DNA from: Azotobacter vinelandii CA
GTDB lineage: Bacteria; Pseudomonadota; Gammaproteobacteria; Pseudomonadales; Pseudomonadaceae
NCBI RefSeq assembly: GCF_000380335.1
Contig: NC_021149.1
Location: forward strand, 2,408,501-2,472,500
Direction of reading: 5' to 3'
Length of the DNA: 64,000 bases
Part shown: positions 47,895 through 61,413 of the stretch, one piece after another
How positions within the stretch are numbered: the first letter of the stretch is position 1
Layout of the letters: each line of letters begins with the position of its first letter
Translations under genes and position numbers: made by a program
The notes under the pieces: model-generated
What the model was told of the DNA's origin: nothing
The model's database searches: none
The model's input: only the letters and a program-made list of their open reading frames with translations

Positions 47895-49164
47895 GCCGAT
47901 CAACTTAACAAACAGGCGGTTATCATGGGCTGTGACACCTCGGGCGCAGTCTTTGCCCGGTAGCAGATCCTTGAGGAAATCCTGAAAAAGACTTCCCGAT
48001 TCTGGTGAAATACACCCGCTCCCTTGTCCGAGTTTCCCGATGAAGCAACTGTCCTTCGCCGATGCCGAGTATGCCGGCAAGCGCAAGCAGACCCGCCGCG
48101 AGCGCTTCCTGCTCGAGATGGACCAGGTGGTGCCGTGGCAGGGGCTGATCGCCCTGATCGAGCCCTACTATCCCAAGGGCGAAGGCGGTCGGCCCGCCTA
48201 CCCGCTGGCAGCCATGCTGCGCGTGCACCTGATGCAGAACTGGTTCGGCTACAGCGATCCGGCGATGGAGGAAGCGCTGTACGAAACCACTCTCCTGCGC
48301 CAGTTCGCCGGCCTGAGCCTGGAGCGCATCCCGGACGAAACGACCCTCCTCAACTTCCGTCGCCTACTGGAGAAGCACGAACTGGCCGGGGGAATACTGG
48401 AGGTGATCAACGGCTATCTGGGCGAGCGCGGACTGTCGCTGCGCCAGGGCACCATTGTCGACGCCACCCTGATCCATGCGCCGAGCTCGACGAAGAACAA
48501 GGACGGCAAGCGCGACCCGCAAATGCACTCGACGAAGAAGGGCAACCAGTACTACTTCGGCGGTGCGACCTGAAAGTCGCATGGGTTTCTGTTTCGCGGC
48601 CGCGTCCGACGAAACCGATTGTTCCACCAACCGTTCCCTACCCGGACAGGCGAAGCCGGCAACAGCTTGGTCTGAAGCTCTAGGGACAATGTAGCCACCG
48701 ACGTCGTCGGTAGGTCGAGCCGTGAGGCAAGGCCGAATCTGCCAGCATCAAGGCGGAGAGGCGCTAGGGATGAATGGGTACGACCAACACACGTGAACCT
48801 CCTATAAACGTCGTCATGACAGCCAAGCCAAAGATGCTGACAGGCTTGAACCAAAAGGTATGCGGTCAGGCAGGGGCTCTTACCGATAGCCCCTCGTGGA
48901 CGAAGTGCCGCCGGCGAAATCGAGGGGTCCGACCCATTCGGAAATCCATGCGGAACAGGGTAAGCCCGTAGCATCGCCGGACACGGCAGGCGGACCGCGA
49001 GGAACGCTGAGGGTGCTGCGGGTAAAGGAATGTGGAGAAAGCGAAGGCCGCCCTGTAACGGGGTGGATACGGGCTAAGACATGGCCTGGCGCGAAAGCGA
49101 GCAGACTTCCACAAGGTCTTCCATGGCGAAATAACCTTGCCAATCGTTGGACGGAGGAAAGCAG

Positions 49165-50682
49165 ATGACAGAACCAGCTCGCCATGCGCAAGCAGCGACG
49201 CCACGTTCTGGTGCACCTTCGCATGCCAAATCGAACTGGCCCCAATCCTGGTGCCGGATCGAATCGGACGTGAAACGACTCCAGGTGCGTATTGCCAAGG
49301 CAACACGAGAAGGCAGGTGGGGCAAGGTGCAAGCCTTGCAGAGGCTGCTGACTCGCTCGTACAGCGGCAAGATGCTCGCCGTGAAACGAGTGACGGAAAA
49401 TCGAGGGAAGAAAACACCGGGAATCGACGGCAAGATCTGGTCGACTCCGGTCGCCAAATCGAAGGGAGCATCGGCGCTGAAGCAGCGTGGTTATCGACCA
49501 CAGCCGCTGAGGCGCCTCTACATACCCAAGAGCGACGGCAAGGAACGCCCACTGGGGATTCCAACGATGCGGGACAGGGCCATGCAAGCGCTGTGGAAAC
49601 TGGCGCTCGAGCCGGTGGCAGAGACGCGTGCCGATCCCAACTCGTATGGTTTCCGGCCAGAACGTTCAACGGCCGATGCCATCGCACACGGCTTCACCGT
49701 GCTGGCAAAGCGTAGCTCGGCAGAGTGGATACTTGAAGGAGACATCCGTGGCTGCTTTGACAATATCAGTCATGATTGGCTGCTCACCAATGTCCCCATG
49801 GACAAGACCATTCTGCGTAAATGGCTGCAGGCAGGGTATGTCGAGCAGGGAACCTTGTTCGCAACGGAGGCGGGAACCCCGCAAGGGGGAATCATCTCCC
49901 CGATACTCGCGAACTGGACCCTGGATGGACTGGAGCAGGCCGCTCTCACCAGCGTGGCTTCGACAGAACGCCGGCGAAGGCCCTTCAAGGTCCATGCCGT
50001 AAGGTATGCCGATGACTTCATCGTCACGGGGGCTTCGAAATCTCTCCTGGAACATCAGGTACGACCGGCGATCGAGGCGTTCCTGAAAGAGCGGGGCCTG
50101 GAGCTCTCGGCAAAGAAGACTCACATAACGCATATCTCCGAAGGCTTCGACTTTCTTGGCCAGAACGTACGCAAGTACGCCGGCAAGCTGCTGATCACTC
50201 CAGCTCGCAAGAGTGTGAAAGTGCTCCTGGAGAAAGTCCGGGAAGTCGTAAACGGGAACAAGGCAGCCACACAGGCGAACCTGATCCTGATCCTGACCCT
50301 GACCCTGAACCCGATCATCCGGGGGTGGGCCATGTATCATCGCCATGTCGTTGCTGCCGCCCGCTTCGCATGGATCGACCACCAGATTTGGCGAATCCTA
50401 TGGCGCTGGGCTGTGCGCCGGCATGCCATGAAAAGTGCTCACTGGGTAAAGCAACGATACTTCCGCGTGGTGGGGCGACGACACTGGGTGTTTGCTTGCA
50501 AGGAAAGAAAGCATGGCATGAGCCAGCCCGTCTGGCTGTTCGCTGCAGCCAGTGTTCCGATCATACGGCACGTCAGGATATGCAGCGCGGCGAACCCGTT
50601 CGACCCTGCATGGACGCTTTACCTGGAGCGCAGGAGAGCACAGCGTCAGGTAGCCCGGTCACCCGGCTGCTGGAAGGCTTGA
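49165..50682 (+). CDS. ltrA: Group II intron reverse transcriptase/maturase, no HNH domain
   Basis: 505 residues. The RT motifs are in order: KTPGIDGK, LRRLYIPKSDGKERPLGIPT, NSYGFRPERSTADAI, GDIRGCFDNISHDWLL, GTPQGGIISPILAN and the catalytic VRYADDFIVTG (about residue 284). The maturase X domain includes NPIIRGWAMYHRHV. In related proteins a segment like ANPFDPAWTLYLERR is followed by a Cys/His HNH endonuclease domain; here the chain stops 14 residues later, directly at domain V. It should splice but may have lost second-strand cleavage. The ATG at 49165 has GGAGG upstream. Confidence 0.9.
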   Translation: MTEPARHAQAATPRSGAPSHAKSNWPQSWCRIESDVKRLQVRIAKATREGRWGKVQALQRLLTRSYSGKMLAVKRVTENRGKKTPGIDGKIWSTPVAKSKGASALKQRGYRPQPLRRLYIPKSDGKERPLGIPTMRDRAMQALWKLALEPVAETRADPNSYGFRPERSTADAIAHGFTVLAKRSSAEWILEGDIRGCFDNISHDWLLTNVPMDKTILRKWLQAGYVEQGTLFATEAGTPQGGIISPILANWTLDGLEQAALTSVASTERRRRPFKVHAVRYADDFIVTGASKSLLEHQVRPAIEAFLKERGLELSAKKTHITHISEGFDFLGQNVRKYAGKLLITPARKSVKVLLEKVREVVNGNKAATQANLILILTLTLNPIIRGWAMYHRHVVAAARFAWIDHQIWRILWRWAVRRHAMKSAHWVKQRYFRVVGRRHWVFACKERKHGMSQPVWLFAAASVPIIRHVRICSAANPFDPAWTLYLERRRAQRQVARSPGCWKA

Positions 50683-50714
50683 GCCGTATGAGGGGTGACT
50701 CTCATGTACGGTTC
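50681..50714 (+). ncRNA. Domain V of the group II intron
   Basis: A 34-base hairpin starting GAGCCGTATGAGGGG and ending CATGTACGGTTC. It has the pairing GAGCCGTA/TACGGTTC expected of domain V, the catalytic heart of the ribozyme. Its AGC-triad position reads GAGCC, consistent with an active fold. Confidence 0.9.
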
Positions 50715-51361
50715 TCAGGGGAGGCAGGAGTGGTAACACTCCTGCCTTACCCGACTGAAGGCGCATATCGGCGTCGATGCCGAGTCGGGCCTGGTGCATC
50801 ACGTGGTGGGCACGGCGGCCAACGTGGCGGATGTCACCCAGGTCGACAAGGTGCTGCATGGCGAGGAAAACCTGGTCAGTCTCGATGCGGCCTATGTCGG
50901 TGTCGAGAAACGTCCGGAGCATGCCGGACGGAAAGTCGTCTGGCAGATCGCGGCTCGCCGCAGCACCTACCAGAGGCATGGCAAGCGCAGTGTCCTGTAT
51001 CGCGTCAAACGCCGGATCGAGAAAGCCAAGGCGCAGATGCGGGCGAAGGTCGAGCATCCGTTCACGGGTGATCAAGCGGCAGTTCGGCTACGTCAAGGTC
51101 CGCTTCCGCGGCCTGGCGAAGAACACGGCGCAACTGGTGACGCTGTTCGCCCTGTCGAACCTGTGGATGGCGCGAAAACATCTGCTGGTGGCAGGAGAGG
51201 TGCGTCCGTAATGCGGGGAATCATCCCGGCAAAGCGCCTCGTCAAGGGCAAGACATGGATTTGCAAAGAAATATCGGCCTGAATTGCCGCGGAGCTGCCG
51301 TTTTTTTGAGCAGTCTAGCGCTCGGGCAGGAAATGTCGGGGCTAATTCAGACTTTCCTTGA

Positions 51362-51585: not shown

Positions 51586-51750
51586 ATGCTTTCACAAGTA
51601 AATATGCGTGCGGTGGGAGGTGGTATTCCGGAACTAACATGGAGAGATGCTGTGCGGCTAATAGTGACTCTCGCATTTTTTATAGTGCTACTCCCCGATC
51701 GATTCAAGGCTCCAGCAAGCTTTACATTTCCATGTGTGAGGCGCGTGTGA
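51586..51750 (+). CDS. Small membrane-type ORF at the head of the cluster (54 aa, unknown)
   Basis: I do not recognise this product. It has 54 residues: a polar start with a triple Gly (MRAVGGGIPELTW), one hydrophobic helix (AVRLIVTLAFFIVLLP, about 24-39) and a short basic tail. AAGGA lies 10 bases upstream. It overlaps the likely start of the nucleotidyltransferase gene by 19 bases, so it may couple translation. It could be a precursor peptide with a GG-type leader, a truncated membrane protein, or a non-coding coincidence. Confidence 0.35.
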   Translation: MLSQVNMRAVGGGIPELTWRDAVRLIVTLAFFIVLLPDRFKAPASFTFPCVRRV

Positions 51751-52850
51751 TTGTCGATACGCGAATAAATCTGCTGATGTTGGCACTGTCGGCCGGCATG
51801 ATGTCAATCGATGAAGGTGAATCGGTAGTTTATGCTGATAATCTTGTTCGAGCAATCGACAAGACATGGTTGAATAAAAATCAAAATACAGTCGTGCAGT
51901 TCATGCACAAGACGAAAATGATGTCATTCGCTGACAGCCTCTTTCCTTTTGTCCAAGAGTGTCAGCTCTTTAAGCTCGTAGAGCTTTATAATGCTCTGGT
52001 GGAAGTGACTGCGATCAGGCGATCCATGCTGGAGCCTGTATTCACAGCACTCAATGAGAGTCGTATTGATGTCATGCCTTACAAAGGCATAGATTTCATT
52101 TACAACTATCAGAGTGCTTCGGCTCATCGTTTTATCTCCGATGTCGATCTGATCATCAGACGCAATCAACTGTCTTGTGCTGCTTCAGTGTTCGAAGGCA
52201 TGGGGTTTGTTCAGGCGCAGGTCAGCAAGGGGCAATTATCGGTTGATGGCCAATCCCTACATATGCTGCCATGGGTGTTGAGCGATGCGATGGGTGTGGC
52301 CTGGAATGAACAGTCTGTTCGACCCTATGTGAAGGTTGGCAAAGCTGAGGTGTTACAGCCTTATCAAGAGATACTTTCTGAGTACACGATGATTTATCAG
52401 TCAGGGCAGCCGATGGTGATTGCCTACATCGATCTAGAATTTTCCGTAATGCCGGGAATCGATGAGAGAGATGTTTGGCATCGAACACGAGTCACAAAGA
52501 TTGCCGATGAGGTTTGCTCGGGGCTTTGTCCGGAGCTCTATCTTTGCTCATTGTTTTGCCGAGTGTGTACGGTCTCGGATGTTTTCGATGCCCCAAGTGT
52601 TTATCCCTTTGTGGATGCTCTGAGGGTATTGGTCGCTGGAGGCATTGACTGGGATTATTTATGGGTAATGGCCGACAGATATTATCTCGTTGTACCGATC
52701 TCTCAATGTCTGATCGAGTTGGTTGCTATCGCGGGATCAGCCATACCTGCTGAGGTATTCAGTCGATGCCAAAAAAACCTGATAATCCATGGGGCATCGA
52801 GTAAACCAACGCTATTGGAGTGGCTGAGCGTTATCAAGGGTATCCTGTAA
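51732..52850 (+). CDS. Nucleotidyltransferase-family protein (PF14907-like)
   Basis: 372 residues from ATG 51732; longer in-frame readings exist back to 51582 but lack a matching N-terminus. The family core is visible at about 120-150: MPYKGIDFIYNYQSASAHRF then ISDVDLIIRR, the Asp pair expected to bind metal in nucleotidyl transfer. Proteins of this family occur in peptide-tailoring and polysaccharide-associated clusters, often beside HPr-kinase-like proteins as here; the true substrate is unknown in most. AT-rich codons set it apart from the host genes. The start is uncertain. Confidence 0.75.
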   Translation: MCEARVIVDTRINLLMLALSAGMMSIDEGESVVYADNLVRAIDKTWLNKNQNTVVQFMHKTKMMSFADSLFPFVQECQLFKLVELYNALVEVTAIRRSMLEPVFTALNESRIDVMPYKGIDFIYNYQSASAHRFISDVDLIIRRNQLSCAASVFEGMGFVQAQVSKGQLSVDGQSLHMLPWVLSDAMGVAWNEQSVRPYVKVGKAEVLQPYQEILSEYTMIYQSGQPMVIAYIDLEFSVMPGIDERDVWHRTRVTKIADEVCSGLCPELYLCSLFCRVCTVSDVFDAPSVYPFVDALRVLVAGGIDWDYLWVMADRYYLVVPISQCLIELVAIAGSAIPAEVFSRCQKNLIIHGASSKPTLLEWLSVIKGIL

Positions 52851-52896
52851 TTGATGGTTCAAGAAATGTGTACTCAACAATAAGGATGAGGTTGAA

Positions 52897-53811
52897 ATGC
52901 GGATTAGCACGCCGAGAAAAAGTACCAGTACTCTTTGCGTGATCGGTGGTACTGGGCATGTCGGGCAGTCGTTAATGTCATTGTTGGGAGCCTGTGAAGG
53001 ATGGGGGGTGGTGTTCTATGTTGAAAGCCATGAGCAAGCTTGCCGGCTGGAATGTAGCTTTCAAGATCACTTAGTCCAGAAATGGCGGGTATCCTTCGAT
53101 CAGGCCTCAATTATTAATAGCGACACTATTCTCTTCATTGCCGGTACCAAAACAGCCGCACAAGGTAGCAAAAACGACCTGTTTACCAGTAATAAAAAAA
53201 TTATTGGTCACTACCTTCAACTGATGAGTGGAAAGAACATTATTCTGGTCACCAATCCATGCACCCAGTTAGGGTGGTATATTGAATCCACTATCGATGC
53301 ATTTACCATTGGTGTCGGCGTACAGAATGACTACAATCGACTGTCCTATCAAAACCCAGATGTCGATTATATTTTGGGTGCACATAATATACAGGAGCAG
53401 GTTTTCTACGATGCTCAAGAGATGTGCGTATTTGACGGTTTCTCTAATGCTGAAATTTATAAGTCACATCGTGAAACGCAAGACAGATATGTGAGTGACC
53501 GGCTATTTGATCTGCTCAGAAAAAATCTGCGTCAAGATGAGTATTTCAAATGGTGGAAAATGCAGCGTTACCATTCGGTCGCAAATTATTCAAGCTACTC
53601 CTGTGGGCGCGCAATTATTCAGGCGCTTAACTATATTGGTGGGGCGCGTGAAAGAAAGATTCATGGGGAAGTCAGAGTAACCCTCACCTCCGGTGAGAGT
53701 GTCTTTGTCGGCGTACCTATTTGTAATGACAAGCTTTACTGTACGCCTCAATCGCTTGAGTTATTTTTAAAGGCCAAGGAGGAGTATTTTGAAAAGTACA
53801 GATTGTCGTGA
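52897..53811 (+). CDS. Lactate/malate-dehydrogenase-like NAD(P)-dependent oxidoreductase
   Basis: 304 residues. The Rossmann motif VIGGTGHVG is at 15-23, the VTNP motif at 118-121 and a catalytic-type His163 in YILGAHNIQEQVF (GEHG in classic enzymes). The mobile-loop Arg of true lactate/malate dehydrogenases is replaced by Lys residues in AGTKTAAQGSKNDLF, so the substrate is probably not lactate or malate; a 2-keto or 2-hydroxy acid in the local pathway is plausible. AAGGATGAGG lies before the ATG. It overlaps the kinase gene by 23 bases. Confidence 0.75.
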   Translation: MRISTPRKSTSTLCVIGGTGHVGQSLMSLLGACEGWGVVFYVESHEQACRLECSFQDHLVQKWRVSFDQASIINSDTILFIAGTKTAAQGSKNDLFTSNKKIIGHYLQLMSGKNIILVTNPCTQLGWYIESTIDAFTIGVGVQNDYNRLSYQNPDVDYILGAHNIQEQVFYDAQEMCVFDGFSNAEIYKSHRETQDRYVSDRLFDLLRKNLRQDEYFKWWKMQRYHSVANYSSYSCGRAIIQALNYIGGARERKIHGEVRVTLTSGESVFVGVPICNDKLYCTPQSLELFLKAKEEYFEKYRLS

Positions 53812-54760
53812 GATTAGTTTGAGTTATTATGGCTTGGTCGACCTCAGAATATATTGCATAAACGAGCGAGATGCCGAATTGTTCAATAGTATTCTTCGTG
53901 AATATCTGATGCCATTTCTGCAAGTGAAAGCACCGACGGGGCAACCTCATTACACAATCTTGTTGCGTCAGGGCGATTTTGATCTGGTTGGATCTGATTG
54001 GACCCCCATGACTTTTTTGTTGGACGATGCCGTCTCGGACTTTCGTTTCGGCGTGGAAAAACATTACTCGCCGACAAGGCGGGACATCTTCAATCCTCTA
54101 AACGGAACGCTATTTAGTATTTCCGGTACAGAGGTTGAAATTATTTATGTGACCAAAAATGCCTTGGTCAAGGATATTCAGCGGGTGATCAAACAATTGC
54201 TCATCACCAAAATAGAAAATGCCGGTGGTGCTGTACTGCATGCCTCAGCGTTTTCGTTGGATGGTCGAGCTATTTGTTATGTTGGGGAGAAGGGGCAGGG
54301 GAAGACTACTTGCTTGTTGGAGTCCCTGAAGGCTAATGGTGCAAAATTCATTACTAACGACCGTCTTCCGATCATACCGATTTCCGGAAAGTTCCATGTT
54401 CTGGGATGGTTTGAGGAGTTACGACTTGTTCAGCCATCCGGTGGAAAGAAAAAAAAGCTAAGGGTATTGGAGCTTTGTGAGCCTCTACGAATAGAGACAC
54501 GACCGGTACCCCCTAAACTCATCGTGTTACCCGACTGCCTAGGTAAGGTGGGAAACGAAAATAATGCACGGGAAGTGATCGAAGGGCAGCTATTGACACC
54601 GGTTGATCCGCAACGCCCGAAGTGGCTAGGTTATTCGAAATCGCTGGATTTTGACCGTGATGCCTTACTGGATCAACTTCCTACGAGACGCCTTCAATGG
54701 CAGTTCCAAGAGCGAGATGAGTTACTGGGCAAAATCAAGGAGGTGGTGGATAGTGTATGA
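53789..54760 (+). CDS. HPr-kinase-like ATPase
   Basis: 323 residues. The P-loop GEKGQGKTT is at 166-174, preceded by the HprK-like stretch GGAVLHASAFSLDGRAICYV and followed by FITNDRLPIIP, which holds the acidic metal site. Such HPrK-related kinases without the HPr partner accompany nucleotidyltransferase-family proteins in several bacterial gene cassettes and, in lasso peptide clusters, phosphorylate a precursor. The TTG start at 53789 has AAGGAGG upstream. It overlaps the sulfotransferase gene. Confidence 0.75.
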   Translation: MKSTDCREISLSYYGLVDLRIYCINERDAELFNSILREYLMPFLQVKAPTGQPHYTILLRQGDFDLVGSDWTPMTFLLDDAVSDFRFGVEKHYSPTRRDIFNPLNGTLFSISGTEVEIIYVTKNALVKDIQRVIKQLLITKIENAGGAVLHASAFSLDGRAICYVGEKGQGKTTCLLESLKANGAKFITNDRLPIIPISGKFHVLGWFEELRLVQPSGGKKKKLRVLELCEPLRIETRPVPPKLIVLPDCLGKVGNENNAREVIEGQLLTPVDPQRPKWLGYSKSLDFDRDALLDQLPTRRLQWQFQERDELLGKIKEVVDSV

Positions 54761-55147
54761 CCTTGTACTGATCGCTGGTCCCTGTAGAAGCGGGACTACT
54801 TTTGTTTTCAACGCCTTATCGCATAGTGACTTCATTGGTGTTTTCCAGCCGTTAAAACATCAAATCCGGTGTGAGCTGAGCGGCACCTCTAGCGAGATGA
54901 AATTTGAGCATTATGTAGGGAATCGCATTGTTATCAAAGAGGCATTTGGACCATATAGTCTGGAAGAGGCTGGTTACGATCCGGTTCAAAAGGCAGTCGA
55001 TATTTTCCAGGCTGAAAAAATTTTGCTCGTACTTGTGCTACGTTCGCCCACAGAATGTCTGGCATCATGGGAAAAGGCTTTTTATTCCGATCGTCCGGTC
55101 AATGATCGAGTGTTCAACCAAGCCTATCTGAATACTCTACGACTTCA

Positions 55148-56354
55148 GGGCACCTCTAAAAACACCCACCTGAGCTGGGTCGAGCAGTGACGAACCCAGC
55201 GCTTGGCATCCGTTGACCGGGTTGATGTCTCGCAGAAGTTCCTGCTGCCGGTCGCGGTATGCAACCAGCGACCTGACTCAGGCCATTTCCAGTAGTCTCG
55301 ACATCCGCTTGAGGTTGTAGACCGCCGATTTGACCACCAAACCGAACTCCGCCCGGACCAAGCCAATGCTTCGGACCATCTTGCCGCCCATCTGGGCCAG
55401 GCTGGCAAAGACATGTTCGACCCGGGCTCGGGGACTGGCTATGCGTTTGTTTCGTGCCTTGTCCCGTTCACCGATCGGCTTGCCGGCCTGGCCCTTGCGC
55501 TGGATAGATGGCCTCCAGCCGATCAGTTGGAGCCAGCGCTCCCGGGGTCTGTCGTGATACCCGCGATCCGCCCAGAAGTCCCGGCTGCTGTTGCCCCGGT
55601 CGAGCACATCCACCAGATGCAGGGTGTCGGCCTCGCTGGCATCGCTCACCTTCACGCAGCGGATCAGCTTGTGCCGGCGATCCACGCTGACCGACAGCTT
55701 GTAGCCGAAGTACGACTTGCCGTGCTTCTTCGTCCAGCGCGCCTCGACATCCTTTTGCCGGCGCTTGGCGGGCGACCATTCGACCGGCACAGCCTGCTCC
55801 TTCACCACGGCCTGCTCATCGGCCGTGTTGTGCTGGATGGGCGCGCGAACGATGCTGGCATCGATGATCTGCCCTTCGCGAGCCCGGAAGCCGTGTGCCT
55901 GCAACTGACGCTGCACCTCGGCAAAGATCCGATGCTCGACGTTGGCCTGTACCAGGCGCTCGCGAAAGACCCAAATCGTGTTGCGGTCCGGCACTCGGCC
56001 GGAGTTTTTCAACCCGGCAAAACGCTGGAAACTCATACGGTCGAGCAGTTGAAACTCCATCTGCTCGTCGGACAGGTTGAACAGTTGCTGGAGTACCAGC
56101 AGTCGCGTCATCTGCTCCGTTGGATAAGGCGGCCGGCCGCCCTTGGCCCTACTGGGCCTGGGAGCCCAGTGGTCGATCTCGGCGGCCAAGGATGCAAAGT
56201 CCACATGCTTGTTCAGTAGGGCCAGTGGGTCGCCCAAGCTGTCCAGCTTGGCTTCACGCTCCTGGTCGGCAAAAAGACTGAACATCAGTAGGCTCCGGGT
56301 GATCAACAGGCGGATGATCTTACCCAGCGGCCGGGCTGGTTTTTAGAGGTGCCC
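55148..56354 (-). mobile_element. IS5-family insertion sequence, copy 1 (1207 bp)
   Basis: The terminal inverted repeats are perfect over 15 bases: GGGCACCTCTAAAAA and its complement. A 4-base duplication TTCA lies on both sides (55144-55147, 56355-56358). It is inserted in the sulfotransferase gene in opposite orientation. A second copy with the same ends lies at 60202-61413. Confidence 0.92.
55278..56285 (-). CDS. IS5-family transposase, copy 1
   Basis: 335 residues from MFSLFADQEREAKLDSLGDP. It has the N-terminal dimer/HTH region RAKGGRPPYPTEQMTRLLVL, then the DDE catalytic core with GQIIDASIVRAPIQHNTADE (first Asp), FWADRGYHDRPRERWLQ (second Asp) and RARVEHVFASLAQMGGKMVR (Glu). All triad residues are present, so it may be active. 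An in-frame start 21 bases upstream is possible. Confidence 0.92.
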   Translation of the reverse strand: MFSLFADQEREAKLDSLGDPLALLNKHVDFASLAAEIDHWAPRPSRAKGGRPPYPTEQMTRLLVLQQLFNLSDEQMEFQLLDRMSFQRFAGLKNSGRVPDRNTIWVFRERLVQANVEHRIFAEVQRQLQAHGFRAREGQIIDASIVRAPIQHNTADEQAVVKEQAVPVEWSPAKRRQKDVEARWTKKHGKSYFGYKLSVSVDRRHKLIRCVKVSDASEADTLHLVDVLDRGNSSRDFWADRGYHDRPRERWLQLIGWRPSIQRKGQAGKPIGERDKARNKRIASPRARVEHVFASLAQMGGKMVRSIGLVRAEFGLVVKSAVYNLKRMSRLLEMA

Positions 56355-56675
56355 TTCAGCAAAAATATGCCACGGTGCTCGATGTTGAAACTTTGATTCT
56401 GGGGCAGGAACAGCACTTCACCCGTACGCTTGACGAGATCAGGATCCGGCTCGGGGGGATAGATGTTGCCCAGCGCTATCGCGATTATGTGAAGCCTAGG
56501 GATCCACCCCGTTATGAGGTTCATGGTTTGTTAGACAAAGCATTGAAAGGCAAAGACTACAACGCCGCGTATGTTTCGAGAGATACAGCGACTGTGGACA
56601 TCTCCCGGATAGCCGTGGCACTGCAATGCTATAGTGCAGCTAAGCATAGCCTGAACAACCCAAACGGGAGCCATC

Positions 56676-57524
56676 ATGAGTTTTGAAGTGTTGTATAAGA
56701 TTTTTCCTGAGCGCCGTAACGGTAATCATAAGGATGAACTCTTTATTTTTGCCGGCCCCTGTGTTGTCGAAAATGAATCGATCACGCTGCAGATCGCCGA
56801 AGCACTTGCCGATATTCACCAAGCCTGTGGGATCGACATCGTATTCAAGGCAAGTTTCATGAAGGCAAATCGAACGTCTAAAAGCAGCTTTACCGGGCTT
56901 CCTCTGGATCAGTCACTGTATATTCTGCAAAAGGTCAAAACCCAGTTTGGATTGAAGGTCCTGAGTGACGTACACGAATACACCAATCTCGATGAAATCG
57001 CCGATGTCATCGATGTATTGCAGACCCCTGCCTTTCTCGTGAGACAGACAGAGTTCTTGAAAAAGGTCGCCGCGGTCGGCAAACCAATAAACATCAAGAA
57101 GGGCCAGTTCTTGAGTCCGACGGAAATGATCAGCGTCGTCGACAAAGTTCTGTCCTTTGGCAATAGCGACTTGCTGGTGTGCGAGCGCGGAAGTTCATTT
57201 GGCTACAATTACCTGATCAACGATTTTCGTGGGATGCAGCAGTTGATGCAGATGGGGCAGCCATTAGTATTCGATGCGACACACTCAGTTCAACGTCCTG
57301 GCGCCTTGGGCGATAGCTCTGGAGGTGACGCTAGGTATGCCCCAAGGCTTGCCAAAGCAGCAGTGGCCTTAGGCGTGGATGGGATCTTTCTGGAAACCCA
57401 CCCAGATCCTGCCTTGGCGCTGAGCGATGGACCCAACATGATTCCTTTGGCGCTCGTCAAGCAATTGCTTCGAGAGTTGAAGGATCTCCATCAGATGGTC
57501 AAGGAGCAATCTACCTATATCTGA
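56676..57524 (+). CDS. KdsA-like 3-deoxy-ulosonate-8-phosphate synthase paralogue
   Basis: 282 residues of the PEP-dependent KDO8P synthase family, which condenses PEP with arabinose 5-phosphate. Metal-dependent-class ligands are all present: Cys29 (FAGPCVVEN), His203 (FDATHSVQRPG), Glu240 (LETHPDP) and Asp251 (LSDGPN). The substrate motif normally FDKANR reads FMKANRTS, with Met62 for Asp. The host needs a housekeeping kdsA elsewhere for lipopolysaccharide, so this AT-rich copy probably makes a specialised precursor. The start overlaps the sulfotransferase stop by 11 bases. Confidence 0.82.
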   Translation: MSFEVLYKIFPERRNGNHKDELFIFAGPCVVENESITLQIAEALADIHQACGIDIVFKASFMKANRTSKSSFTGLPLDQSLYILQKVKTQFGLKVLSDVHEYTNLDEIADVIDVLQTPAFLVRQTEFLKKVAAVGKPINIKKGQFLSPTEMISVVDKVLSFGNSDLLVCERGSSFGYNYLINDFRGMQQLMQMGQPLVFDATHSVQRPGALGDSSGGDARYAPRLAKAAVALGVDGIFLETHPDPALALSDGPNMIPLALVKQLLRELKDLHQMVKEQSTYI

Positions 57525-57553
57525 TCCAGGTCTGATCTGGACTGATCAATCTT

Positions 57554-58234
57554 ATGAGCATCAACAAAAAGGAATATGCTGTGGGTTGGCAAAGTTGGCA
57601 TGAGAACTACCGGAATTCTTTACCGTTGCGGGCTCGACTTGAAGAGGTCAGTCAGCAGGTCACAGACGCGATTAATGCGATAGAGTCACCTCGTGTTCAT
57701 GTACTGAGCCTCTGCTCAGGTGACGGTCGTGATTTACTGAAAGTATTACTGTCAGGGAATACAAATAAAGCCGTGGATGCCACATTAATCGAACTTGATC
57801 CGATTTTGGTTGAGCAGGGCCGAGAGGCATTCGCTGAGCATGGGTTCAGCGATTTCGTGCAGTTTCGTTGTGCTGACGCCACGTTGTTTTCCAGTTATCA
57901 GGACTTGCCCAAAGCCGAGCTTGTCATGGTATGCGGGGTATTCGGGAATGTAAGGGCCAATCACGTGGAGCGGCTGATATTTTCGCTGAAGGGATTTTGT
58001 AGTCCCGGTGCCCGAGTTGTGTGGACCAGAAGCCTCAATGAGTTCGATGACGGAGAGGCGGCTGCCCAGAGGATAAGGTGCTGTTTTAAGGATACCGGTT
58101 TTCGAGAAGCGGCTTTCAAACGTACCCCGGAAGGTACTTTTGCCGTGGGGAGTCTCATTTACGAGGGGGAACAGGAACGCTTGCCATCCACGGGGCAGAT
58201 GTTTGAGTTTTCTGCATTCTGGGATGTGCACTAA
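57554..58234 (+). CDS. SAM-dependent methyltransferase-like protein
   Basis: 226 residues, class I fold. Motif I reads VLSLCSGDGRDLLKVL (about 49-64), the acidic end of strand 2 is LIELDPILVEQG, and motif III-IV is AELVMVCGVFGNV. The remainder matches no subfamily I can name, so small-molecule or peptide methylation cannot be separated. It sits 29 bases after the KdsA-like gene and overlaps cysC by one base (TAATG). Confidence 0.7.
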   Translation: MSINKKEYAVGWQSWHENYRNSLPLRARLEEVSQQVTDAINAIESPRVHVLSLCSGDGRDLLKVLLSGNTNKAVDATLIELDPILVEQGREAFAEHGFSDFVQFRCADATLFSSYQDLPKAELVMVCGVFGNVRANHVERLIFSLKGFCSPGARVVWTRSLNEFDDGEAAAQRIRCCFKDTGFREAAFKRTPEGTFAVGSLIYEGEQERLPSTGQMFEFSAFWDVH

Positions 58235-58839
58235 TGGTAGGTATGATGGTGTCTTCTGAACATAATCTCACTTGGCATAGTACGGCGGTAACGCCTGAAA
58301 TGCGGGCTACACTATCGGCGCAGCGTCCTCTTACATTGTGGTTTACCGGTCTGAGTGCTGCTGGCAAGAGCACGCTGGCCTTTAATTTGGAAAGCCTGCT
58401 GATCGCTAACCGTATTCATTGCTGTGTCCTCGATGGCGACAATATCCGCCACGGCCTGTGTCGGGACTTGGGCTTCGATAACCATAGCAGAACTGAAAAT
58501 ATTCGGCGGGTTGCGGAAGTCGCACGGCTGATGAATGATGCCGGACTGGTAGTCATGGCAGCCTTTATTTCTCCGTACCGGCGTGATCGAGAGCTCGCCA
58601 GAAGCATTATTGGTGCAGATCGCTTTCATGAGATTTATGTCAGCGCTCCGCTTTACGTCTGCGAACGTCGGGATCCCAAGGGGCTCTATAAAAAAGTGCG
58701 TATAGGTGAGTTAAGCGGTTTTACCGGTGTTGATTCCCCCTATGAAGAGCCTGATCATCCTGACGTTTACCTGGATACCTCTCGTACACCGATCCCTGAC
58801 TGTCTAGATCGGTTGGCCGGGTTGATCACCGCACGTTGA
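58234..58839 (+). CDS. cysC: Adenylylsulfate (APS) kinase
   Basis: Makes PAPS, the donor for sulfotransferases, from APS and ATP. It has 201 residues with P-loop GLSAAGKST (39-47), the APS site VLDGDNIRHGLCRDLGFDNH, and the active-site Ser in AFISPYRRDRELAR; the lid FTGVDSPYEEPDHPDVYLDT is complete. The gene is immediately linked to a sulfotransferase operon rather than to cysDN, so it most likely supplies PAPS for a dedicated sulfation. The start overlaps the methyltransferase stop. Confidence 0.92.
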   Translation: MVGMMVSSEHNLTWHSTAVTPEMRATLSAQRPLTLWFTGLSAAGKSTLAFNLESLLIANRIHCCVLDGDNIRHGLCRDLGFDNHSRTENIRRVAEVARLMNDAGLVVMAAFISPYRRDRELARSIIGADRFHEIYVSAPLYVCERRDPKGLYKKVRIGELSGFTGVDSPYEEPDHPDVYLDTSRTPIPDCLDRLAGLITAR

Positions 58840-58873
58840 ACTAAAGCGCGATAGCAATGGACGGCGCGATCAT

Positions 58874-60052
58874 GTGCATTCGAGAGTGCCAGAGGGCAGA
58901 CGTTTGATGATCGGGTTTGTATTGTTTTGGACCCAGTTCCTAGTGGTCAGTAATATATTGATCATGCCGGTGTTGCTTCAGGGCGTACGGGAAGAGTTTG
59001 TTTTGGATGTCGACTCAATAGGCCTGTTGTTGGCTGCGTTTCCGTTGATGGCGTTCATTAGTAACATGTTCGTAGGCCGGTTTATCGATCGAGTCGGCCG
59101 ACCCTTGAGTTTACTGATGGGGCTCTGTACGGTCGCAGCGTGTTATCTGCTTATGTTTTTTGCAGAGAACGACACCGTTGCTATTGTGTCACGAGGGCTG
59201 ACCGGCATCTGTATGCCACTTGTAGGTGCGAGCCTCTATGCGGTGATTGCCGACGTCTATGCCGACAAGGTTCGTATGCGAGTCATTGCGCTCGTCAGCA
59301 CTGCCGCATCATTGGCGGGATTGATTACTCTTCCGGTAGGGGCATGGTTCTCTACTTCGTCTAGATGGCATTACGTGTTTCTGACGTTTGCCATTGCTTG
59401 CTTTTGCTTGGGAGTGATCAGCTATTTTTCTTACTATCGCCGGTATGCACCCAATCGATTGAGGGGCGCGGATGTAAGGCAAGGTGCTATAAGGCTTTAC
59501 CGAGAGGATGCGGTGCTACGAAGTTATGCCCTGTTATATTGGCTCCAGGGCTTTGCCTATTTTTCGTTGATTTTTTGGATGCCATCATACTTTCAGCGAT
59601 TATTGGATGGAGGGCAATCTTCCACCGTGCTGCTTTTCGGCGGAATAGGGGCAGTGTTGGGGGCGTGGTGTTTGGCGAGGCTGACGGGCAGGCGAGTGGG
59701 GGCCTTCTACGCTTTGCTTGGGATCAATGGTATCGCTGTCTTGAGCCTGCCTGCTTCTGCTCTGGGCTTATGGGCAGCCTCTGGAGTATGGTTTGTTTAC
59801 AATGCCTGTCGTCAGTTGTTATCTGCGCATATCCTCTCGGGGGCTAATGCTCGTTGTGGCAATGCTGATCGTGGGGTATTGAATGCTACGATGAGTGTCG
59901 GGTACCAGGCTGTGGGGGCTGCTGCTGCGTTTTTGACGGCACAGTTGTCTTTTCTGCCTCATTCGCTTTCGATAATCTGCATTATTGTCACATTGGCGTT
60001 GTTGCCGAGCTTTTACTTTTATAAAAACCTCGATCGTTTGAATGCGTTGTGA
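58874..60052 (+). CDS. Major facilitator superfamily transporter
   Basis: 392 residues, about 12 membrane helices. The MFS loop 2-3 motif is seen as GRFIDRVGRPLSLLMGL (about 74-90) and a related motif in ARLTGRRVGAFYALLG. As the last gene of the cluster it is the probable exporter of the product. The GTG at 58874 is used; an ATG at 58907 would remove 11 residues. The stop is 149 bases before the second IS copy. Confidence 0.85.
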   Translation: MHSRVPEGRRLMIGFVLFWTQFLVVSNILIMPVLLQGVREEFVLDVDSIGLLLAAFPLMAFISNMFVGRFIDRVGRPLSLLMGLCTVAACYLLMFFAENDTVAIVSRGLTGICMPLVGASLYAVIADVYADKVRMRVIALVSTAASLAGLITLPVGAWFSTSSRWHYVFLTFAIACFCLGVISYFSYYRRYAPNRLRGADVRQGAIRLYREDAVLRSYALLYWLQGFAYFSLIFWMPSYFQRLLDGGQSSTVLLFGGIGAVLGAWCLARLTGRRVGAFYALLGINGIAVLSLPASALGLWAASGVWFVYNACRQLLSAHILSGANARCGNADRGVLNATMSVGYQAVGAAAAFLTAQLSFLPHSLSIICIIVTLALLPSFYFYKNLDRLNAL

Positions 60053-60201: not shown

Positions 60202-61413
60202 GGGCACCTCTAAAAACCCTCGCGTCCCGAAGGTAAACTCAACGGTTTGTTGATCCCCCGGAGCTTGCCGATGTTCAGTCTGTTTGCCGACCAGGAGCGA
60301 GAAGCCAAGCTGGATAGCCTGGGCGACCCACTGGCTCTACTGGACAAGCATGTGGACTTTGTCGCCCTGGCAGCCGAAATCGACCGCAGGGTTCCTCGCC
60401 CCAGCCGCGCCAAGGGCGGTCGGCCGCCTTATCCGACAGAGCTGATGACGCGCCTGCTGGTGCTTCAGCAGTTGTTCAACCTGTCCGATGAGCAAATGGA
60501 GTTCCAACTGCTCGACCGCATGAGCTTCCAGCGCTTTGCCGGAGTGAAGCACACCGGCCGGGTCCCGGACCGCAACACGATCTGGTGCTTTCGCGAACGC
60601 CTGGTGAAGGCCAATGTCGAGCATCAGATCTTTGCCGAGGTGCAACTCCAGTTGCAGGCGCAAGGATTCCAGGCCCGCGAAGGGCAGATCATCGATGCCA
60701 GCATCGTTCGCGCACCGACCCAGCACAACACCGCCGATGAGCAGGCCGTGGTGAAAGAACGGGCGATACCCGTCGAGTGGTCGCCCGCCAAGCGCCGGCA
60801 AAAGGATGTCGAGGCACGCTGGACGAAGAAGCACGGCAAGTCGTACTTCGGCTACAAGCTGTCGGTCAGCGTGGATCGCCGGCACAAGCTGATCCGCTGT
60901 GTGAGGGTGAGCGATGCCAGCGAGGCCGACACCCTGCATCTGGTGGATGTGCTCGACCGGGGCAACAGCAGTCGGGACTTCTGGGCGGATCGCGGGTATC
61001 ACGACAAGCCGCGTGAGCGCTGGCTCAAGTTGATCGGCTGGCGGCCACATATCCAGCGCAAGGGCCAGGCGGGCAAGCCCATCCACGAACGGAGCAAGGC
61101 AAGGAACAAACGCCTGGCCAGCCCCCGCGCCCGGGTCGAGCATGTTTTTGCCAGCCTGACACAGATGGGCGGCAAGGTGGTCCGGAGTATTGGCTTGGCT
61201 CGTGCCGAGTTTAGCTTGGTGGTCAAATCGGCGGTCTACAACCTTAAGCGGATGTCGAGCCTGCTGGAAATGGCTTGAGCTGGAGCGCCGGTCGCGTACC
61301 GCGGCTGGCGATGCTGAATGCCTTGCGAGAACTTATCCCTGTGCTCCGATGCCAAGTGCTGCACTTACCGCCGGTCTCTGGCTCAACCTGGAGGTGCGTT
61401 TTTAGAGGTGCCC
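60202..61413 (+). mobile_element. IS5-family insertion sequence, copy 2 (1212 bp)
   Basis: It has the same 15-base ends as copy 1 (GGGCACCTCTAAAAA) and a TATA duplication at 60198-60201 and 61414-61417. Orientation is opposite to copy 1. It marks the right border of the AT-rich cluster; host-like sequence resumes just after it. Confidence 0.92.
60271..61278 (+). CDS. IS5-family transposase, copy 2
   Basis: 335 residues from MFSLFADQEREAKLDSLGDP, closely similar to copy 1 with scattered substitutions (for example FAGVKHTGRVPDRNTIW against FAGLKNSGRVPDRNTIW). The DDE triad is present (IIDASIVRAPTQH, FWADRGYHDK, RARVEHVFASLTQ). The amount of divergence suggests that the copies are not a very recent duplication of each other. 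Confidence 0.92.
   Translation: MFSLFADQEREAKLDSLGDPLALLDKHVDFVALAAEIDRRVPRPSRAKGGRPPYPTELMTRLLVLQQLFNLSDEQMEFQLLDRMSFQRFAGVKHTGRVPDRNTIWCFRERLVKANVEHQIFAEVQLQLQAQGFQAREGQIIDASIVRAPTQHNTADEQAVVKERAIPVEWSPAKRRQKDVEARWTKKHGKSYFGYKLSVSVDRRHKLIRCVRVSDASEADTLHLVDVLDRGNSSRDFWADRGYHDKPRERWLKLIGWRPHIQRKGQAGKPIHERSKARNKRLASPRARVEHVFASLTQMGGKVVRSIGLARAEFSLVVKSAVYNLKRMSSLLEMA

Follow-up and report, generated by a model that had tools for sequence, protein, structure and literature searches.

A rare, probably mobile operon in Azotobacter vinelandii CA that may direct the synthesis of an exported, sulfated metabolite

What is made by a compact block of nine genes whose composition sets it apart from its surroundings in the chromosome of Azotobacter vinelandii CA? 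The block lies at 51586-60052 of the window, the 64,000-nucleotide stretch analyzed here (positions 2408501-2472500 of the single 5.37-Mb contig, NC_021149.1). It encodes, in order, a small open reading frame (ORF), a nucleotidyltransferase of family PF14907, a lactate/malate dehydrogenase (LDH/MDH)-like protein, an HPr kinase (HPrK)-like protein, a sulfotransferase, a KdsA-like protein, a methyltransferase, an adenosine 5'-phosphosulfate (APS) kinase and a major facilitator superfamily (MFS) transporter. Our answer, to which we give a probability of roughly 0.6, is that this operon makes an exported, sulfated specialized metabolite and was probably acquired horizontally. The gene arrangement itself indicates that it is a real biosynthetic gene set, beyond chance, because its eight main genes recur in order in another genome, G131.

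An earlier, sequence-only reading of the window had described nine close-packed, overlapping genes on one strand, and placing the ORFs bore this out. All nine lie on the + strand, with overlaps of 23 bases between the LDH-like and HPrK-like genes, 8 between the HPrK-like and sulfotransferase genes, 11 between the 3' part of the latter and the KdsA-like gene, and 1 between the methyltransferase and APS kinase genes; the small ORF overlaps the nucleotidyltransferase gene by 4 bases if that gene starts at GTG 51747 and by 19 if it starts at ATG 51732. Three gaps measure 46, 29 and 34 bases. The cluster is also AT-richer than its neighbors, as had been claimed: computed GC is 0.44-0.52 per gene, against 0.68 for window positions 1-47000.

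Do the same genes travel together elsewhere? Genome G131 belongs to the same family and another genus, and its locus L006 carries all eight main genes in the identical order (nucleotidyltransferase, LDH, HPrK, sulfotransferase, KdsA, methyltransferase, APS kinase, MFS) at 61-84% identity. The sulfotransferase there is intact (240 amino acids; 79% identity, measured on the 5' piece of the window gene), so that a conserved neighborhood with an unbroken copy of this gene does exist. In two further genomes, G628 and G491, a core is kept: the LDH-like, HPrK-like and sulfotransferase genes are adjacent and in the same order in all four clusters. Each cluster also has a nucleotidyltransferase-like gene (PF14907-type in three; a different, Pol-beta-like protein in G491, at 20.1 bits below the PF18765 cut-off of 26.9) and a transporter-like gene (MFS in three, that of G628 being 26% identical to the window's; a membrane protein in G491 with zero Pfam matches, MATE/flippase-like by eye alone). 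Methyltransferase and APS kinase frames are open in three of the four. GC lies below that of the surroundings in every case, the other three clusters giving 0.59 versus 0.65-0.67, 0.58 versus 0.66 and 0.44 versus 0.59.

One might still suppose a chance neighborhood, or decayed debris without joint function, given that the surroundings are rich in insertion sequences (IS) and that one gene is broken. Every other frame in the window cluster is open, however, and neither the eight-gene synteny with another genus nor the recurrence of the core in four genomes fits that supposition, which we consider extremely improbable. The co-occurrence of homologous genes in other genomes, on which the sequence-only reading depended, is thus observed.

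The searches for relatives used overlapping genome samples, and their counts are not additive. Among 398 genomes of the family, the HPrK-like protein matched the window, G131 and, weakly and partially, G376; the last was rejected as a relative (34% identity over 75 amino acids, with no other cluster gene within 17 kb). The LDH-like protein, searched as a profile, matched G131, G628 and G491 among 398 genomes of G131's genus, and the window alone among 369 genomes of the class and again among 299 of the phylum. In three sets of 95 relatives, largely the same genomes, it found the query genome alone each time, and of four genomes in the window's own genus it matched one, the other three being without the cluster. 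Two pattern scans of 84,980 species genomes and one viral pattern scan returned pattern matches and no relative. The LDH-HPrK-sulfotransferase module is rare, occurring in four genomes of the samples searched, and the operon is probably horizontally acquired and mobile.

We then consider what the individual proteins may do. The family labels given by the sequence-only reading held for the nucleotidyltransferase, KdsA-like protein, methyltransferase, APS kinase and MFS transporter, which exceed family cut-offs (Pfam cut-offs for all but the KdsA-like protein), whereas the LDH-like and HPrK-like proteins of the window stay below threshold. The nucleotidyltransferase reaches 39.5 bits against the PF14907 cut-off of 31.2 and is 61% identical to that of G131 and 27% to that of G628; the APS kinase match, in both Pfam and NCBIfam, is above cut-off across the domain.

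The LDH-like protein is 80, 43 and 42% identical to its counterparts in G131, G628 and G491. It falls below the Pfam cut-off (17.6 versus 27), while the G628 orthologue passes (32.7), and its profile aligns with MDH at E=1.9e-7. The invariant D145 and R148 align with MDH and H163 with Streptomyces LDH/MDH-like proteins; we take these three to be the LDH/MDH catalytic residues. At two substrate-side columns, which we assume to be those of the MDH Arg pair for dicarboxylate, all four proteins have T86 and K92, where two compared MDHs have Gln and Arg. That all four share this pair suggests one common substrate. We had considered Thr86 as proof against a dicarboxylate substrate and dropped the argument, since the compared MDHs likewise lack Arg at that column.

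The HPrK-like protein (73, 45 and 42% identical to those of G131, G628 and G491) gives sub-threshold family matches alone: 21 bits versus 200 for TIGR04355, which leaves it under the model cut-offs for HPr kinase and HprK-related kinases A and B. Its P-loop is intact, and its His and NDR motifs, judged by eye, resemble those of HPrK. The predicted structure (pLDDT 81.5) is nearest to ATP-dependent phosphoenolpyruvate (PEP) carboxykinases (PEPCK; best E 2.2e-7) and then to HPr kinases (E about 1e-5). By this model, the nearest assignment would be a P-loop kinase with the fold common to HPrK/P and PEPCK.

The sulfotransferase motifs 5'-PSB (GPCRSGTT) and 3'-PB (RxPxxCLxSW) are invariant in the three intact copies and are both retained on the 5' piece in the window; presumably they bind 3'-phosphoadenosine 5'-phosphosulfate (PAPS). 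Only the G491 copy passes the Pfam Sulfotransfer_1 cut-off, and a Pfam scan of the window's 5' piece gave zero matches. The two window pieces flank an IS5-family element whose ends, GGGCACCTCTAAAAA, are inverted and whose target duplication is the 4 bases TTCA. Part of a plasmid from Azotobacter salinestris is 93.8% identical to the element. A profile of the three intact sulfotransferases from other genomes found no further copy in the window's genome. Because the element splits the gene, the window strain would make at best an unsulfated intermediate; most likely, sulfation is off in this strain through IS inactivation of the sulfotransferase.

Other mobile elements lie nearby. A second IS5-family copy (60202-61413; inverted, 85.9% identical, target duplication TATA) stands just downstream of the cluster, so that the pair flanks the cluster's second half. 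Upstream (48040-51282), two parts of IS5-type transposase ORFs enclose an ORF (49147-50682) for a group II intron reverse transcriptase/maturase; the second part matches ISPre1 records.

Is the KdsA-like enzyme central to the product? The sequence-only reading had offered, as one option, a 3-deoxy-ulosonate derivative reduced by the dehydrogenase. The protein exceeds two equivalog cut-offs for 3-deoxy-D-manno-octulosonate 8-phosphate (KDO8P) synthase, NF003543 (365 bits, cut-off 242) and TIGR01362 (340 bits, cut-off 314), and lies below a third model, NF009109 (268.7 versus 457). It is 84% identical to the G131 protein and 43% to the housekeeping KdsA of its own genome. Seven genomes checked each have one other KdsA at 42-44% identity, the cluster copy being present in the window and G131 alone. 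In a tree of 13 sequences, the two cluster proteins form a fully supported group apart from seven housekeeping ones, on long branches that leave their exact place unsettled. Both keep KANR and the metal-site Cys, His, Glu and Asp, to which we assign functional roles. Like KDO8P synthase in these respects, they are unlike it in being extra paralogues within an operon and in having M or V before KANR and a TGLP or TGLA loop, where 11 of 11 comparison KdsA proteins have D and RG[PL]G. These departures, one just ahead of KANR and the other an Arg-to-Thr change in the loop, suggest that the sugar may not be arabinose 5-phosphate.

A KdsA-like gene accompanies the LDH-HPrK-sulfotransferase core in just two of its four clusters. 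A 3-deoxy-ulosonate as the common core is therefore not upheld: the KdsA step appears to be an optional addition, and the LDH-like substrate need not be the KdsA product. The genomes of the clusters without it do own a housekeeping KdsA and should have Kdo-8-P on hand, so a Kdo-type substrate is possible.

Might the second KdsA instead feed a sulfated, methylated Kdo-like sugar that decorates a surface polysaccharide or lipopolysaccharide? The equivalog scores favor this, and capsule clusters with sulfotransferases and APS kinase are named in the available parts of PMC11641403 and PMC11766843. No glycosyltransferase, kdsB, kdsC or polymerase was found, however, among the cluster ORFs and six other ORFs scanned (mobile-element and LysR), the transporter is of the MFS type, half of the clusters do without KdsA, and the genome already has a housekeeping copy. 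We judge polysaccharide decoration very unlikely.

We favor a hydroxy-acid-type metabolite as the most likely product and propose the following scheme. The LDH-like enzyme would reduce a 2-oxo acid to a 2-hydroxy acid, and the HPrK-like kinase would phosphorylate a hydroxyl on that acid or its partner. The PF14907 nucleotidyltransferase might attach a further group at the phosphate or hydroxyl, and the methyltransferase would methylate an intermediate. APS kinase would supply PAPS to the sulfotransferase, and the MFS protein would export the product. In the window and G131, an additional PEP-derived 3-deoxy-ulosonate unit could be made or supplied via the KdsA-like enzyme. The earlier idea of a molecule that is made, sulfated, methylated and exported survives in outline, with the gene set recurring beside an intact sulfotransferase, but the ulosonate as its shared core does not.

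Several points weigh against this scheme. The cluster genes include no scaffold-forming or ligase enzyme. The LDH-like model has a pLDDT of 67, and its fold matches are hence weak. The HPrK-like model is slightly closer to PEPCK than to HPrK, and its TM-scores are low, none of the 50 matches listed exceeding 0.49 by query length; a decarboxylating PEPCK-like kinase beside an MDH-like enzyme is, by that model, possible. The nucleotidyltransferase and transporter calls in G491 are weak, and the clusters number four, one of them broken.

We wondered if the operon might instead tailor a small peptide, the other option named by the sequence-only reading, with the HPrK-like kinase, nucleotidyltransferase and sulfotransferase modifying a ribosomally synthesized and post-translationally modified peptide (RiPP) in the manner of phosphorylated or phosphoglycosylated lasso peptides. 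As described in the available parts of PMC8498205 and PMC4289311, HPrK homologues of lasso clusters phosphorylate a Ser; for pseudomycoidin, a nucleotidyltransferase then puts one or two hexoses on the phosphate, and a sulfotransferase gene is sometimes present. The likeness to paeninodin/pseudomycoidin tailoring, an HPrK-like kinase and nucleotidyltransferase with at times a sulfotransferase in one operon (PMC8498205, in part), is matched by differences. Ten cluster ORFs scanned contain no lasso B protease, asparagine-synthetase-like lasso C protein or other peptide-ring family, no precursor could be aligned, and the LDH-like, KdsA-like, APS kinase and methyltransferase genes are extra. A small ORF does precede the nucleotidyltransferase gene in both the window and G131, where it has 49 codons (L006 7735-7884) and a similar length. 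Its frame in the window is open, as the sequence-only reading had it, but its status as a gene is doubtful: the similarity of the two peptides does not rise above that of shuffled sequences, of which 223 in 1000 aligned as well, and we rejected it as a conserved peptide. No convincing peptide ORF lies upstream in G628. More favorable is a gene for a Gly-rich 35-amino-acid peptide with a good ribosome site that precedes the G491 core, although the PqqD-like tail of a G491 protein has just a Pfam E of 0.086 and zero PDB matches. Taken together, RiPP tailoring is in our view unlikely.

The G491 peptide is a hint in its own right. Its first 25 residues matched three of 149 genomes, itself and, weakly, G439 and G425 (58% identity, E=0.003 and 0.004), whose peptides likewise end in a Gly-rich tail. 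Every member of this family adjoins a different tailoring cluster. Next to the G439 peptide are genes resembling TauD, DegT, NDK and, weakly, a nucleotidyltransferase. The G425 peptide has neighbors of DegT, thymidylate kinase, Pol-beta and MATE type; its Pol-beta-like neighbor is 39% and its MATE-like neighbor 47% identical to the G491 counterpart. No such peptide, sought by the IRVL motif or a Gly-rich end, was found among ATG-started small ORFs of the window (50-62 kb), L006 (6000-16500) or the G628 locus L019 (7000-16000). We treat the peptide as a lead only and not as a reading of the window cluster.

Returning to the sulfated hydroxy-acid metabolite, is its gene set already known? In monobactam- or sulfazecin-type and ascamycin-type clusters, a sulfotransferase and its source of PAPS likewise serve a small molecule that is secreted. 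Unlike them, our cluster was found to have no nonribosomal peptide synthetase (NRPS) or nucleoside genes and has the LDH-HPrK core instead (on the sulfation clusters, see the available parts of PMC11298585 and PMC4257720). Thuringiensin was discarded as a match, its gene set differing in what is available of PMC4147579. As the sequence-only reading had supposed, no characterized pathway with this combination turned up among the papers listed by searches of an open-access library, some of which were directed at side questions.

Plasmids offered partial likenesses. HPrK-like matches fell in 28 plasmid records, of which nine were inspected (one without annotation); the whole core was in none of the nine, and an LDH/MDH-like neighbor was in two, both from Streptomyces. 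Those three-gene cassettes (L014 5564-8846, L025 3522-6804) run from an APH-type kinase gene (family tested for L014) through the LDH/MDH-like gene to the adjacent HPrK-like gene. Unlike our cluster, they show neither a sulfotransferase nor an APS kinase among the genes annotated close by, and the dehydrogenases are not significantly similar (BLASTP, L014). On two actinomycete plasmids (L022 5922-9353, L024 4715-8331), the HPrK-like gene adjoins a PF14907 nucleotidyltransferase gene, in clusters with 7-cyano-7-deazaguanine synthase, epimerase and kinase genes. Outside the four clusters, the most similar sulfotransferases occupy three plasmid places at 27-36% identity; those of Paraburkholderia and Roseomonas adjoin NRPS or AMP-binding genes and cysD plus APS kinase, and the Azospirillum one lacks such neighbors. 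For the Roseomonas match no gene is annotated, and its translation meets a stop. Together with the lasso clusters, these links suggest, by analogy, a place in specialized metabolism for the HPrK-nucleotidyltransferase and sulfotransferase-PAPS pairs.

In the plasmid clusters with sulfotransferase relatives at L046 5663-16351 and L045 6809-14092, the NRPS/AMP-binding and cysD plus APS kinase genes stand with methyltransferase and transporter genes. Three Ti plasmids (L012, L013, L026) carry, not far from a LysR gene, a small cluster whose genes are of sulfatase-like, HPrK-like and MFS type, with APS kinase in two of them (annotated in L013, by tblastn in L012). The plasmid searches found no LDH-like relative and no G491-type nucleotidyltransferase. 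PF14907 appeared at one distant place, in Rhizobium. The 8 kb around it gave matches to neither LDH nor the sulfotransferase nor KdsA; an HPrK-like match some 7.5 kb off was weak (29%, E=2.4e-5). KdsA matched 111 plasmid records, four of which were inspected and set aside: three were housekeeping-like or unrelated, and on a Cereibacter plasmid kdsA has two sulfotransferase genes and a methyltransferase gene as neighbors, yet in a polysaccharide-type setting.

Table 1. Features of the window cluster and of the Gly-rich peptide family (window positions unless a locus is named)
Feature	Position	Strand	Remarks
Small ORF	51586-51750	+	54 codons plus stop; ribosome-binding-site-like AGAAGGA upstream; status doubtful
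PF14907 nucleotidyltransferase	51732-52850	+	Start ATG 51732 or GTG 51747; frame open from GTG 51582
LDH/MDH-like, putative NAD-dependent 2-hydroxyacid dehydrogenase	52897-53811	+	D145, R148, H163 invariant in 4 orthologues
HPrK-like P-loop kinase (predicted)	53789-54760	+	GxKGQGKTT, H151, NDR 190-192 invariant in 4 orthologues
Sulfotransferase, 5' piece	54753-55147	+	Start GTG set by G131 copy; profile 2-134 of 236
IS5-family element	55148-56354		Splits sulfotransferase; transposase 55278-56306 on -
Sulfotransferase, 3' piece	56355-56686	+	Profile 131-227 of 236
KdsA-like, putative PEP-dependent ulosonate-phosphate synthase	56676-57524	+	Two NCBIfam equivalog cut-offs; second paralogue in genome
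S-adenosylmethionine methyltransferase (Methyltransf_20)	57554-58234	+	34.0 bits, cut-off 21
APS kinase, CysC type, PAPS-making	58234-58839	+	PF01583 E=2.2e-63; PRK03846 E=1.5e-77
MFS transporter, presumed exporter	58874-60052	+	PF07690 E=1.6e-36; start GTG 58874 or ATG 58907
Peptide family, 35-37 amino acids	L020 12961-13068	-	IRVL near start, EQ motif, Gly-rich tail
Peptide family, 35-37 amino acids	L031 505-618	+	IRVL near start, EQ motif, Gly-rich tail
Peptide family, 35-37 amino acids	L032 6525-6635	+	IRVL near start, EQ motif, Gly-rich tail

Perhaps the three core genes form a plug-in for a sulfo-phospho hydroxy-acid unit not described before? Within this bacterial family, such a unit might be used with MFS export alone in the window, G131 and G628, or be loaded by the Pol-beta-type protein on the Gly-rich ribosomal peptide in G491, with the peptide family carrying other units in G439 and G425; this would amount to a new peptide-scaffolded assembly class. 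We offer the idea as a speculation that is distinctly unlikely to hold in full.

The locus points to an apparently uncharacterized sulfated-metabolite pathway with a three-gene signature, for which intact copies can be named, the window copy being broken. The steps common to all copies (reduction, a kinase reaction and sulfation) can be told apart from the optional KdsA step, and related genomes may harbor a new peptide-scaffold family.

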